Part shown: one piece after another, positions 3,691 through 32,977 of the stretch
Numbering within the stretch: the stretch's first letter is position 1
Layout: every line of letters begins with the position of its first letter
Assembly (NCBI RefSeq): GCF_900188205.1
Contig: NZ_FZOH01000010.1
Coordinates: 1 to 64,000, forward strand
Length of the DNA stretch: 64,000 bases
Direction of reading: 5' to 3'
Source of the DNA: Geodermatophilus saharensis
GTDB taxonomy: Bacteria > Actinomycetota > Actinomycetes > Mycobacteriales > Geodermatophilaceae
Position numbers and translations under genes: made by a program
The notes under the pieces: model-generated
Database searches by the model: none
What the model was told of the DNA's origin: nothing
The model's input: the letters and a program-made list of their open reading frames with translations, nothing else

Positions 3691-4994
3691 GCCTCGTGGT
3701 CCGCGCCCGGCGGGTGGTGCTGCCCGGGGGTGAGCGCGCCGCGACGGTGCACACCGCAGACGGCGTCGTCACCGCGGTCACCGCCTTCGACGACGCCCCG
3801 GCCGGCGCGGTCACCCTCGCCGACGACGAGGTGCTGCTGCCCGGGCTGGTCGACAGCCACGTGCACGTCAACGAGCCCGGCCGCACCGAGTGGGAGGGCT
3901 TCGCCACCGCCACGCGCGCCGCGGCCGCCGGGGGCGTCACCACCGTCGTGGACATGCCGCTGAACTCCGTGCCCGCCACCACCACCCTCGACGCGCTGCG
4001 CGTGAAGCAGGAGGCGGCGGCCGGGCAGGTCGCCGTCGACGTCGCGTTCTGGGGCGGTGCGGTGCCCGGCAACGTCGCCGAGCTGCGGGGCATGCACGAG
4101 GCCGGCGTCGTCGGGTTCAAGTGCTTCCTGCTCGACTCCGGCATCCCGGAGTTCCCGCCGCTGGACGACGCCGGGCTGCGCGCGGCGCTGACCGAGCTGG
4201 CGACGTTCGACGCGCTGCTGATCGCGCACGCCGAGGACGAGCAGGTCATCGCCGCCGCGCCGGAGCCGGCCGGCGCCAGCTACGCGGCGTTCCTCGCCTC
4301 CCGGCCCCCCGCGGCAGAGGAGACGGCGATCGGCCGGCTGGTGGCGGCGACGCGGGACACCGGCGCGCGCAGCCACGTCGTCCACCTCGCCGACGGCGAC
4401 GCGCTGCCACTGCTGCGGGCGGCGCGGGCCGGGGGTGTGCGCATCACGGTGGAGACCTGCCCGCACTACCTGACCTTCGCCGCCGAGGACGTGCCCGACG
4501 GCGACACCGCGTTCAAGTGCTGCCCGCCGATCCGGGAGTCGGCGCACCGCGAGGCGCTGTGGGGCGCGTTGCGGGCCGGCGACGTCGACCTGGTCGTCAG
4601 CGACCACTCGCCGTGCACGCCCGAGCTCAAGCGGCTCGACGTCGGCGACTTCGGGCTGGCGTGGGGCGGGATCGCCGGGCTGCAGGTGGCGCTGCCGGCG
4701 GTGTGGACCGGCGCGCGGGCGCGCGGGGTGCCGCTGGCGGAGGTGGCCGGCTGGATGTCGGCGGCGCCGGCGCGGCTGGCCGGGTTGCCCGGCAAGGGCG
4801 CGATCGCCGTCGGCCGGGACGCCGACCTGGTGGCCTTCGCGCCGGAGGAGCGCTCCACCGTCGGCCGGCTCGAGCACCGCAACCCGGTGACCCCCTACGC
4901 GGGCCGGGAGCTCACCGGCGTGGTGCGGCGGACCTGGCTGCGCGGGCGGGAGGTCGACGGCAGCCCCCTCGGCCGGCTGCTGCGCCGAGGGTAG
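3687..4994 (+). CDS. allB: Allantoinase
   Basis: A 435-residue cyclic amidohydrolase that opens allantoin to allantoate in purine breakdown. Metal ligands are visible: HVH at 58-60 in [11 protein letters not shown], the carboxylated lysine in GFKCF (Lys145), His181 in IAHAED, His233 in VVHLADG and Asp306 in SDHSPC. The EPGR and ETCPHYL motifs match allantoinase rather than dihydroorotase. The GTG start overlaps the epoxide hydrolase stop. An allantoicase gene follows downstream, separated by a small convergent gene. Confidence 0.93.
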
Positions 4995-5004
4995 GAGGGC
5001 CCTC

Positions 5005-5063
5005 CTCCCCACCCCTCGCTCCGCTCGGGGCGGTGCCCCTGGAGGGGGCCGAGGCGTGGGGAG
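5005..5063. terminator. Terminator hairpin after allantoinase
   Basis: CTCCCCAC (5005-5012) pairs with GTGGGGAG (5056-5063) and CCTCG (5014-5018) with CGAGG (5050-5054). A further GGGGC/GCCCC pair lies inside. It separates convergent allB and the small minus-strand gene and can serve both. The inner segment, CCCC and GGGG around TCGCTCCGCTC, resembles the loop of the repeated hairpin family elsewhere in the window. Confidence 0.6.
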
Positions 5064-15241: not shown

Positions 15242-15267
15242 GGCGACCGGCGCCCCGCCCGGGATGG

Positions 15268-15318
15268 CCTCCCTGCAGGGTCCCGCTGCGAGCGTGCGAG
15301 CAGCGGGGGGCAGGGAGG
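15268..15318. repeat. Two-storey hairpin with conserved loop, copy A
   Basis: The outer stem is CCTCCCTG/CAGGGAGG (15268-15275 with 15311-15318). The inner stem is CCCGCTGC/GCAGCGGG (15282-15289 with 15300-15307), and the loop is GAGCGTGCGA. It lies between the sortase stop and the sigma promoter and probably terminates the sortase transcript. The same architecture and loop occur at 31468-31518 and 31662-31709. Confidence 0.75.
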
Positions 15319-15329
15319 TCCTTCGACCG

Positions 15330-29823: not shown

Positions 29824-31462
29824 GGCCCAGGTCCTCGCGGCCGAGGCCACGATCGGCAGCCCGGCCGTCAACATCTCCATCTTCGGCGCGTTCGTGCTGA
29901 TCACGCTGGTCATCACCTTCCGCGCCAGCCGCAACAACAAGAGCGCCGCCGACTACTACGCGGCCGGCCGCAACATCAGCGGGACCCAGAACGGCCTGGC
30001 CATCGCCGGGGACTACCTGTCGGCGGCGTCGTTCCTGGGCATCGCCGGGGCCATCGCCGTCTACGGCTACGACGGCTTCCTGTACTCGATCGGCTTCCTC
30101 GTCGCCTGGCTGGTCGCGCTGCTGCTGGTCGCCGAGCTCATGCGCAACACCGCCCGGTACACGATGGCCGACGTCCTGGCCTTCCGGATGCGGCAGGGCC
30201 CGGTGCGCACCGCGGCGGCCATCTCGACGCTGGCGGTGTCGCTGTTCTACCTGCTGGCGCAGATGGCCGGCGCCGGCGGCCTGGTGACCCTGCTGCTCGG
30301 GGTCACCGGCGAGGCGGCGCAGGCGCTCGTCGTCGTCCTGGTCGGCGCGCTGATGATCATCTACGTGCTGGTCGGCGGCATGCGGGGCACCACGTGGGTG
30401 CAGATCATCAAGGCCTCGCTGCTGATCGCCGGCGCGCTGGTCATGACCCTGTGGGTGCTGGCCGAGTTCGGGTTCAACCTGTCCTCGCTGCTCGGCGGCG
30501 CGGTCGACAACGCCGTCGAGGGCCGTGACGTGCTCGCCCCCGGCGCCCAGTACGGCGCCACGAGCACCTCCAAGCTGGACTTCGTCTCCCTCGGCCTGGC
30601 CCTGGTCCTCGGGACGGCGGGCCTGCCGCACGTGCTCATGCGCTTCTACACCGTGCCCACGGCGAAGGACGCCCGCCGCTCGGTGGTCTGGGCGATCTGG
30701 CTGATCGGCGTCTTCTACCTGTTCAGCCTGGTGATCGGGTACGGCGCCGGCGCCCTCGTCGGGCCGGAGCGGATCCTCGGCGCGCCCGGTGCGGTCAACT
30801 CCGCCGCGCCGCTGCTGGCCTTCGAGCTCGGCGGCACGATCCTGCTGGGCATCATCGCCGGCGTCGCCTTCGCGACGATCCTCGCGGTGGTCGCGGGCCT
30901 CACCATCACCGCGTCGGCGTCCTTCGCCCACGACGTCTACGCGTCGGTGATCAAGAAGGGCAACGTGCCGCCCAACGGGGAGGTGCGCATCGCCCGCATC
31001 ACCGCCGTCGTCATCGGGGCGATCTCGATCGGCCTGGGCATCCTGGCGCTGCAGGCCGGGCTGAACATCGCCTTCCTCGTGGCGCTGGCGTTCGCGGTGG
31101 CCGCCTCGGCGAACCTCCCGACGATCCTCTACACGCTGTTCTGGAAGCGGTTCACCACCCAGGGCGCGCTGTGGTCGATGTACGGCGGGCTCATCGCCTG
31201 CATCGTGCTGATCGTCTTCTCGCCGGTCGTCTCGGGAGCGCCGGTCAACCCGGCCACCGGCCTGTCCCCGTCCCTGTTCCAGGACGTGGACTTCCACTGG
31301 TTCCCGCTGAACAACCCCGGCATCGTGTCGATCCCGCTGTCGTTCTTCCTCGGCTGGCTCGGCACCGTGCTGTCCAAGGAGCGGCCCGACCTCGACAAGA
31401 ACGCCGAGCTCGAGGTCCGCTCGCTCACCGGCATCGGGGCGGAGAAGGCCGTCCAGCACTGA
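29816..31462 (+). CDS. actP: Solute:cation symporter, ActP (acetate permease) type
   Basis: A 548-residue SSS-family transporter with about 13 helices. SRNNKSAADYYAAGRNISGTQ, NGLAIAGDYLSAASFLGIAG, YDGFLYSIGFLVAWLVAL and GTAGLPHVLMRFYTVP are typical of the ActP group, which takes up acetate, glyoxylate or related carboxylates with sodium or protons. Seven or eight residues of the start overlap the DUF485 gene end. The C-terminus is a cytoplasmic tail ending GIGAEKAVQH. The substrate is most likely acetate but is not proven by sequence. Confidence 0.88.
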   Translation: MPEAQVLAAEATIGSPAVNISIFGAFVLITLVITFRASRNNKSAADYYAAGRNISGTQNGLAIAGDYLSAASFLGIAGAIAVYGYDGFLYSIGFLVAWLVALLLVAELMRNTARYTMADVLAFRMRQGPVRTAAAISTLAVSLFYLLAQMAGAGGLVTLLLGVTGEAAQALVVVLVGALMIIYVLVGGMRGTTWVQIIKASLLIAGALVMTLWVLAEFGFNLSSLLGGAVDNAVEGRDVLAPGAQYGATSTSKLDFVSLGLALVLGTAGLPHVLMRFYTVPTAKDARRSVVWAIWLIGVFYLFSLVIGYGAGALVGPERILGAPGAVNSAAPLLAFELGGTILLGIIAGVAFATILAVVAGLTITASASFAHDVYASVIKKGNVPPNGEVRIARITAVVIGAISIGLGILALQAGLNIAFLVALAFAVAASANLPTILYTLFWKRFTTQGALWSMYGGLIACIVLIVFSPVVSGAPVNPATGLSPSLFQDVDFHWFPLNNPGIVSIPLSFFLGWLGTVLSKERPDLDKNAELEVRSLTGIGAEKAVQH

Positions 31463-31467
31463 GAGAA

Positions 31468-31518
31468 CCCCCGTGCCCCCCGCCGCTCGCACGCTCGCGG
31501 CGGGGCCCTGCACGGGGG
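31468..31518. repeat. Two-storey hairpin with conserved loop, copy B (minus orientation)
   Basis: Read on the minus strand, the outer stem CCCCCGTG/CACGGGGG, a left-side CAGGG bulge, the inner stem CCCCGCCGC/GCGGCGGGG and the loop GAGCGTGCGA repeat the architecture of copy A exactly, with compensating differences in the stems. It begins five bases after the symporter stop and is the first of four hairpins in this gap. Confidence 0.78.
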
Positions 31519-31537
31519 CCGTTCCAGCCACTCGCCT

Positions 31538-31565
31538 GGCGCGCGTCCCTGCGGGGGCGCGCGCC
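31538..31565. repeat. Second hairpin of the intergenic array
   Basis: GGCGCGCG (31538-31545) pairs with CGCGCGCC (31558-31565), with CCC/GGG inside and a short loop. Very stable, but without the conserved loop of its neighbours. Confidence 0.6.
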
Positions 31566-31589
31566 TCGCGCGTTCCCGTCCCCGGCGCT

Positions 31590-31645
31590 GCGTCCTCCCT
31601 CACCGCAGTGCGTCCTCCCCCACGGTGGGCGGTGAGGGAGGACGC
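31590..31645. repeat. Third hairpin of the intergenic array, with nested repeat
   Basis: GCGTCCTCCCTCACCGC (31590-31606) pairs perfectly with 31629-31645 over 17 bases. The 22-base loop contains a second partial copy, GCGTCCTCCCCCAC (31610-31623), that could compete for the same right arm. The tandem-then-inverted order parallels the element at 28568-28620. Confidence 0.7.
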
Positions 31646-31661
31646 GCCACGACCGGGGTGG

Positions 31662-31709
31662 CCTGCCCGCAGGGGCCCGCGGCGAGCCTGCGAGCCGTGG
31701 GGGGGCAGG
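31662..31709. repeat. Two-storey hairpin with conserved loop, copy C
   Basis: The outer stem is CCTGCCC/GGGCAGG (31662-31668 with 31703-31709), and the inner stem CCCGCGGC/GCCGTGGG contains one G-T pair. The loop GAGCCTGCGA differs from copies A and B by one base. It is followed by GAGAGGTCCT, similar to the AGGTCCT that follows copy A and the 5005-5063 hairpin. Confidence 0.75.
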
Positions 31710-31748
31710 GGAGAGGTCCTCCCTCTGATCACCGCCCGCCGGCGCGGG

Positions 31749-32006
31749 TCAGGCGGCGCGGACGGCGGGAGCCGGGTCGGCCAGCGGAGCGACGGGGAGG
31801 GCGGCGTCGACGGTGGCGACGGCGGCCCCGGTCGAGGGGGCGGTCCGGCGCGAGCGGCGCACCGCCCAGCGGGCGGCGAGGGCGGTGAGGACGACGAGGC
31901 CGGCGAGCGCCTCGCGGGCGGAGCCGGCGGCGGCGCCGGCCACCGCGACGGCGAGCGCCGCGGCGTGGACGACCGTCAGCAGGACGGCCGGGGTGGGCAG
32001 GTGCAC
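31749..32006 (-). CDS. Small membrane protein, hypothetical (85 aa)
   Basis: Two hydrophobic helices (about 7-27 and 33-48: AVLLTVVHAAALAVAVAGAA and AREALAGLVVLTALAARWAV), then a basic RRSRRTAP stretch and an Ala/Pro-rich tail. GTG start; GGAGGTCCCC lies just upstream as a ribosome site. It is followed by the hairpin array and preceded by the manganese catalase gene on the same strand. No family recognised; coding status is plausible rather than certain. Confidence 0.5.
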   Translation of the reverse strand: MHLPTPAVLLTVVHAAALAVAVAGAAAGSAREALAGLVVLTALAARWAVRRSRRTAPSTGAAVATVDAALPVAPLADPAPAVRAA

Positions 32007-32116
32007 GGGGACCTCCGGGACTGCCGGGCGAGCGGGAGGCGCCCGCCGGGCCGGTGCCCGGACCGCGGGGTCCGGCCACCGGCGCGGCGACGGCGCGGTG
32101 GGGCGAGGTCAGCCCC

Positions 32117-32977
32117 TCACTTGAGCAGGTCCTTGGCCTTCTGCAGCATCGTGTGGGCCTCGGTCTGCGGGGTGTCGTAGAGCCGCGGGTCACCGGGGAC
32201 CAGCGTCGGGGCGTCGGCGGTGGCCTCGATGGCCGCGGCGCGGAAGGTGCCCTTGCCGTCGATCGAGGGGCCGGAGGCCCAGCGGCCGTTGGCGGCCTCG
32301 GGGCCGTCGGAGGCCTGGATGAAGGTGTAGCCCAGGTCGCCGACCTCCTCGTCCAGCGGGAACGCCTCGGGCACCGGCAGCCCCTCCAGGCCGTCCTCCT
32401 TGAGCTGCTCGACGGCGGCCAGCCACTGCTGCTGGTGCATGTGGTCGCGGGTGATGAGGAACCGGAGCATGTCCTTGACGCCCGGGTCGTCGGTCATGTT
32501 GTAGAGCCGGGCGACCTGCAGCCGGCCCTGCATCTCGGCGGTGGCGTTGTAGTAGAAGTCCGCCATCAGGTTGCCGCTGGCGGTCACGTAGGCGCCGGAC
32601 CAGGGGTTGCCCATGGAGTCCATGTACGAGGCGCCCTGCCCGTTCTGGATGAGGTGCTGCGGGTTGTGCTGGCCGTAGCCGGCGGCGGCCTCCTTGGTGC
32701 GGTCGGCCGAGTCGGGCTTGAGCGGCACGTGGTCGAGCAGCCGGTCGATCATCGTGACGATCATCTCGACGTGGGCCAGTTCCTCCGTGCCGATCGAGAG
32801 GAGCATGTCCTTGTACTTGCCGGGCAGTCGGCAGTTCCAGCCCTGCAGCAGGTACTGGGTGGCGACGGTCATCTCGCCCCACTGACCGCCGAGGATCTCC
32901 TGCATCTTGCGGGCGAAGTCCGGGTCGGGACCGTCGGGCTTGGCCTCGTACTGCAGGGCGTGGGTGTGCGTGAACAC
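32117..32977 (-). CDS. Manganese catalase
   Basis: A 286-residue ferritin-like di-manganese enzyme that breaks down hydrogen peroxide. Carboxylate/histidine ligands appear in GGQWGEMTVATQYLLQGW, TEELAHVEMI, AEMQGRLQVARLYN and TRDHMHQQQWLAA. SMGNPWSGAYVTASGNLMAD is also typical. The start is GTG (VFTHTHALQYEA) with GAGGGG upstream; a ten-codon longer frame exists. Two 22-base direct repeats in the upstream gap may be promoter or regulator sites. Confidence 0.93.
   Translation of the reverse strand: MFTHTHALQYEAKPDGPDPDFARKMQEILGGQWGEMTVATQYLLQGWNCRLPGKYKDMLLSIGTEELAHVEMIVTMIDRLLDHVPLKPDSADRTKEAAAGYGQHNPQHLIQNGQGASYMDSMGNPWSGAYVTASGNLMADFYYNATAEMQGRLQVARLYNMTDDPGVKDMLRFLITRDHMHQQQWLAAVEQLKEDGLEGLPVPEAFPLDEEVGDLGYTFIQASDGPEAANGRWASGPSIDGKGTFRAAAIEATADAPTLVPGDPRLYDTPQTEAHTMLQKAKDLLK

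Follow-up and report, generated by a model that had tools for sequence, protein, structure and literature searches.

A REP-like palindromic repeat that adjoins stop codons in Geodermatophilaceae is probably a mobile element

What are the hairpins that recur between the genes of Geodermatophilus saharensis? The stretch of DNA analyzed here, 64,000 nucleotides in length and called the window, contains three intergenic palindromes that share a left bulge and a ten-base loop. A preliminary description suggested that the loop may be read by a protein or RNA, or that the elements may be a REP-like mobile repeat. The three hairpins are present where they were placed, and the suspected degenerate fourth copy is genuine, lying slightly to the left of the interval 5005-5063 first proposed. 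The coordinates are collected in Table 1. Our best explanation, to which we assign a probability of roughly 0.7, is that the hairpins are a non-autonomous, REP-like mobile palindrome that resides next to stop codons and would be moved in trans by an enzyme.

Table 1. Positions of the repeat copies and of the other hairpins considered in this study
Feature	Position	Strand	Description
Copy A	15262..15325	+	64-nt hairpin; head GAGCGTGCGA at 15290-15299
Copy B	31461..31524	-	head GAGCGTGCGA, minus strand, 31487-31496
Copy C	31656..31723	+	head GAGCCTGCGA at 31684-31693
Copy D	4993..5054	-	head GAGC-GGA-GCGA; degenerate
Separate GC hairpin	31538..31565	+	GGCGCGCGTCCC-TGC-GGGGGCGCGCGCC; downstream of copy B
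Related element, family f18	L249:5849-5908
Related element, family f18	L250:6869-6931
Related element, family f18	L251:6493-6556
Related element, family f18	L252:7875-7930

The extent of the family was examined with a covariance model (R1) built from 11 copies, these being A, B and nine others from the genome, with C and D left out. As members of the training set, A and B match the model with 89.5 bits (E = 1.5e-19) and 81.1 bits (E = 2.1e-17) respectively; C and D, which lie outside it, score 42.1 bits (E = 2.1e-7) and 36.1 bits (E = 7.8e-6). As a guard against circularity the model was rebuilt with the ten loop bases masked (R2), giving E = 1.3e-5 for C and E = 4.8e-4 for D. The search of the genome with R1 returned at least 150 matches at E ≤ 1.2e-8. 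Over 864 kb of this genome, covered in full, there are 53 matches, including all four window copies, most of them intergenic and situated after stop codons. Over those 864 kb R2 gives 55 matches, nearly identical in membership to those of R1. Extrapolation to the genome of 4.89 Mb gives a total of roughly 300 copies.

Simple sequence counts were also made. Genome-wide the loop 12-mer stands out, CGAGCGTGCGAG occurring 64 times compared with 34 for its reversed control, and the degenerate pattern AGGGNCCCNNNNYGAGCNNGCGARNNNNGGG comprising bulge, stem and loop occurs 101 times, with no occurrence of the reversed pattern. Within the window itself the loop 12-mer is not unusual (3 matches at no more than one mismatch, 3.4 expected). 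The one Rfam family to exceed its gathering score over the window was 5S rRNA, and copies B and C were without a match even when E values up to 1 were admitted.

Read along the strand that carries the head, the predicted anatomy begins with a GGCC foot, an outer stem of 8-11 pairs, the left bulge AGGGG and an inner stem of 8 pairs. The head GAGC-NN-GCGA follows, and then the returning inner stem, GG, outer stem, a GGTCC foot and TCCTTC, beyond which the complement of a stop codon is found within a few bases. At the foot, one side has the consensus NGAAGGACC, while the opposite side has GGCCGTTCC or varies. The unit is about 64 nt in size; part of the family carries a GTTCCAGCAC(G/C)TCACC tail, which brings it to about 80 nt. 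There are two subfamilies: a CTGCAGGG type that often has the tail, and a GTCC-GAGGCTC type from which the tail was absent in the copies examined.

The loop had been described as a fixed ten-base sequence. This holds for its halves GAGC and GCGA, carried by 44 of the 55 loop-masked matches, whereas the two to four bases between them vary (GT, CT, TC, GGA, GG, CC, CG and others). Among 85 copies, C-G and G-C pairs swap freely at stem positions 2 and 3 while the half-sites stay. The head in full is GCGAGC-NN-GCGAGC, and its two halves can pair, judging by their sequence, through G-C pairs and a tandem G·A step (5′-GA-3′ facing 5′-GA-3′) in a 5′-C_G-3′ context. Tandem G·A in this context forms stable sheared pairs in both RNA and DNA, and folding with ViennaRNA gives a 2x2 GA/GA step with a four-base loop as cap. 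The supposed loop thus fits better with an extended stem capped by tandem G·A pairs, a pairing deduced from the sequence together with the known preferences of the motif. There are two rare head variants, GCGC-GGA-GCGC, where complementary bases take the place of GA/GA, and TCGC-GGA-GCGT, with T·T plus C-G. On the complementary strand the GA/GA step becomes UC/UC.

The better fold lies on the head strand for 82 of the 85 copies, by a mean of -5.2 kcal/mol. This asymmetry arises mainly from one fixed G·U column and the head; elsewhere in the inner stem there are 13 G·T and 8 A·C cells. The loop-bearing strands of copies A and B fold with -41.4 kcal/mol (z = -3.9) and -43.6 kcal/mol (z = -3.4). 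Copy C alone folds no better than shuffled sequences (z = 0.0), and its assignment consequently rests on the match to the model.

The placement of the copies is highly regular. Forty-five of the 53 (about 85%) start 0-10 nt after a same-strand stop codon, compared with an expectation of 3.8% of intergenic positions (p about 1e-55), and the gene whose stop is abutted lies on the strand opposite to the head. Genes were taken from a custom codon-usage caller, and single distances may err where an alternative stop exists. Copy C is such a case: it ends a few nt away from position 31729, where the minus-strand ORF 31729-32193 has its stop, but the caller chose a shorter ORF ending at 31749. A distance of 4 nt separates the TCCTTC end of copy A from the stop of a sortase gene (PF04203; stop codon 15330-15332, minus strand); copy B comes directly after a sodium:solute symporter gene (PF00474; stop codon 31460-31462), and the left end of copy D is itself the TAG stop of a plus-strand amidohydrolase gene that ends at 4994. 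In two other genera 22 of 30 copies are likewise placed 0-10 nt after a stop. The copies had been said to occur in both orientations. That is so along the chromosome, whereas about 85% of copies keep a fixed orientation with respect to the gene that they adjoin. Placement directly after stop codons in a fixed orientation is the strongest regularity of the family, and was missing from the preliminary description.

For 48 copies that face such a gene the other neighbor is convergent in 25 and in tandem in 23, so each copy is tied to that one stop, and in convergent gaps of about 100-230 nt a copy still abuts one stop. The spacing is discrete. A regular-expression detector produced many false positives in coding sequence, and its stop-adjacent tally alone was used; this gave TGA-N-GAAGGACC 48 times and TAG-NN-GAAGGACC 12 times, together with stops formed at the junction itself, TAG-AAGG in eight cases and TGA-AGG in five. 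Of 48 TGA codons adjoined by a copy, 41 are preceded by C, a share that is 62% among TGA stops in general (p = 5e-4), which hints at a preference for CTGA. A plain TGA target motif was excluded as the explanation, as none of five copies examined that lie far from a stop follows TGA.

Such placement could reflect either target choice or survival under selection. Target choice is favored by the copies in convergent gaps of about 100-230 nt, by the junctions that re-form a stop and by the enrichment of CTGA; selection is favored by the failure to find any DNA signal common to stops and to the heads of resident copies. We regard only as tentative, with the odds against it, the idea that insertion is itself aimed at translation stops, in gene-relative orientation, by an enzyme recognizing the tandem-G·A head. 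We know of no such target choice at stop codons for small bacterial repeats. The near-exact placement makes the distinction between insertion targeting and selection acting on terminating ribosomes testable.

Very stable hairpins at the 3′ ends of genes might alternatively be sequence-conserved transcription terminators expanded in one lineage, acting for the abutted gene or against antisense transcription towards it. The T-enriched TCCTTC that follows the hairpin on the head strand is consistent with this, as is the near absence of copies from tandem gaps of 20 nt or less, where they occupy one of 248 stops (0.4%). However, there is no U-tract, the sense 3′ side being GTTCCAGC or variable, and no terminator-like site was found around copies A, B and C. 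Tandem gaps of more than 20 nt carry copies at 22 of 296 stops (7%) and convergent gaps at 22 of 268 (8%); there is neither an excess at convergent pairs nor a depletion at tandem gaps of 21-60 nt, which are often within operons, and most sites have orthologs that lack the copy. Moreover, within the 864 kb perfect stems of at least 9 bp lie downstream of 8 of 27 copies; for 371 copy-free stops the proportion is 28%, and for shuffled sequence 1.5%. Since independent downstream hairpins are equally common with and without a copy, the copies are improbable as the terminators of their genes.

The symporter gene provides an example. The separate GC hairpin downstream of copy B is also present in the congeners compared, and in a similar form in Modestobacter (symporter 3′ ends L181-L202, L101 and L105 aligned), where the symporter gene has the hairpin and no repeat. 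This hairpin probably belongs to the symporter gene itself as its 3′ hairpin, and copy B separates it from the stop codon, a position at odds with a terminator function for the repeat. On the gap statistics, the downstream hairpins and the missing U-tract the ordinary terminator was rejected as the main reading; from their sequences, copies are unlikely to terminate the genes that they abut, and we consider the lineage-expanded terminator quite unlikely overall. Annotators of genomes should be warned that gene-end hairpins of such a kind are not necessarily terminators. The interval between copies B and C also holds another palindromic repeat, at 31590-31645 (GCGTCCTCCCTCACCG ... CGGTGAGGGAGGACGC); its GCGTCCTCCCTCACC is found ten times in the genome and never reversed, with at least two close pairs.

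The occupancy of the sites varies between species. When orthologous stops were compared in eleven congeners, the symporter site was filled in most of them, whereas at most of the other sites one to three species carried a copy and the remaining species had none. The site of copy A is empty in G010, G002, G009, G005, G019 and G023 and filled in G001 and G013. Amidohydrolase orthologs in other species lack copy D, and have their stop a few codons later. In a comparison of G024 with G025 a unit lies directly after TAG in G024, and the flanks otherwise join. In protein sequence the symporter encoded beside copies B and C shares 95% identity with its counterpart in Geodermatophilus dictyosporus, which places the genome in the Geodermatophilaceae.

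Copies also lie inside one another. Two such cases occur in this genome (C10:109185, and C17 near 210500, L291), each inside the head of a resident copy, and others in G013 and G024. At four symporter 3′ ends (L198, L199, L200 and L201) units are nested in the head of the resident copy, and three-level nests are present in L199 and G024. In all of the nested cases examined the inner unit has the orientation of the resident, whose head is partly lost. Nested copies were called from sequence only, a fold-based detector being useless since random GC-rich positions score as highly. As a point against the mobile reading, no clear target-site duplication was detected, and some filled sites are minus a few target bases. 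Polymorphic sites, our test of mobility, are seen both as empty orthologous sites and as nested copies, and together with the high copy number and the family-wide distribution described below they bear out the suggestion of a REP-like mobile repeat.

Integron attC sites lie after stop codons in fixed orientation, fold from the bottom strand and have RYYYAAC/GTTRRRY ends. Recombination sites of this kind would account for the after-stop placement, the bulged imperfect hairpin and the bias in folding towards the bottom strand. Yet the RYYYAAC/GTTRRRY ends are missing, the sense 5′ end being NGAAGGACC and the 3′ end GGCCGTTCCAG or variable, and the copies are dispersed between syntenic genes that occur with or without the site, with no cassette arrays. 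We regard this explanation as extremely improbable.

The Geodermatophilaceae are a group of soil bacteria, and within them the repeat was found in 34 of 37 genomes and in nine of 12 sampled genera, with low numbers in two genera. None was found in 24 genomes from other families of the order. A class-wide scan of 297 genomes gave weak matches in only two genomes (G062 and G338), both of another family (f18), and a phylum-wide pattern scan matched only this genome and one of those two. Plasmid and phage collections gave no match. The f18 element has the same AGGG bulge, a CCC stem and the GAGC-NN-GCGA head, with different outer stems. By manual reading at least two of the four adjoin stop codons, and L252 has two copies in tandem. 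The conserved left bulge of the preliminary description is retained, as AGGG, even in another bacterial family, and together with the GAGC/GCGA halves it supports a conserved recognition feature, which may be read by a protein or RNA.

Could that recognition be exerted on the messenger? The copies might be 3′-UTR elements under selection, in which a protein or the terminating ribosome reads head and bulge, controlling mRNA decay or translation termination. The fixed orientation at 0-10 nt from the stop and the conservation of head halves and bulge elsewhere in the class are in keeping with such a role, and in E. coli terminating ribosomes reportedly stall at REPs that lie within 15 nt of a stop codon (PMC12306157). 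Against it, the well-folding strand is the antisense one with respect to the gene, the sense strand having A·C and UC/UC mismatches; the same gene in close relatives often lacks the copy, and such a function leaves the nested copies unexplained. We judge it improbable as the primary role. A consequence of the copies at the mRNA level is nevertheless plausible.

Returning to a mobile palindrome, the unit would be copied into new places by an enzyme acting in trans. This would read the hairpin in single-stranded form, through the AGGG bulge and the head of two GCGAGC half-sites closed by tandem G·A, on the strand antisense to the neighboring gene. Insertion would occur at a stop codon, leaving it intact or restoring it at the junction, and also inside the heads of copies already in place. 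In mRNA the hairpin begins within about 8 nt of the stop codon, and any effects on ribosomes would be a by-product. The RAYT-type transposase anticipated for such a repeat was not found: no match to Y1_Tnp (PF01797) was obtained in the 37 Geodermatophilaceae genomes, while three genomes elsewhere in the order and five of 14 controls did match. Two other candidates were rejected. Reverse transcriptase is dispensable, since this genome and several others with high copy numbers have none, and IS110 is patchy and uncorrelated, and likewise absent from several high-copy genomes. That no mobilizing enzyme was found among these candidates counts against the mobile reading.

Literature searches gave no palindromic repeat family for Geodermatophilaceae and no description of this element. 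How does it compare with known systems? REP elements of the GTAG class, with their RAYT (TnpA-REP) proteins, are short extragenic palindromes present in more than 100 copies, mostly near gene 3′ ends, that turn over between strains (PMC2817692, PMC3733652). The present family is likewise a short interspersed extragenic palindrome with more than 100 copies per genome, a 3′-end location and turnover. In contrast to REPs it has no RAYT, and no GTAG (or CGTC) tag at its foot; the copies examined form no arrays of alternating orientation, and orientation is fixed to the gene with a spacing of 0-10 nt. The hairpin is also longer, is in two parts and has a conserved head. Because the transposase and the GTAG tag were both sought and are both missing, we class the family as REP-like and not as a canonical REP/RAYT system. 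Most of what is known of REP biology comes from GTAG repeats with RAYT, and a large RAYT-free family with nested insertions and clean empty sites makes it testable which enzyme moves REPs that lack one.

The nearest precedent without a transposase gene is the class of CGTC-tagged REP-like palindromes, which combine stems of 8-9 bp with loops of 4-5 nt and the CGTC tag, have no associated transposase gene and frequently lie near the 3′ ends of ORFs (PMC3733652). Our family shares the last two properties, and differs in having about 19 pairs in two stems, the AGGG bulge and the GAGC-NN-GCGA head.

The TRIT motif of M. tuberculosis, from the RNIE paper, is reportedly a repeated terminator motif expanded in one lineage. 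Like that motif, which is mentioned in PMC3526491, the repeat is a lineage-specific, sequence-conserved hairpin downstream of many actinobacterial genes; unlike it, it is without a U-tract, coexists with the native downstream hairpins, forms nests and is missing from most orthologous sites. Lastly, PMC8450116 describes IS elements, such as ISPpu9, that insert into REP hairpins. Here too resident repeat hairpins are the sites of insertion, but what inserts is a further member of the repeat family itself, in the orientation of the resident.
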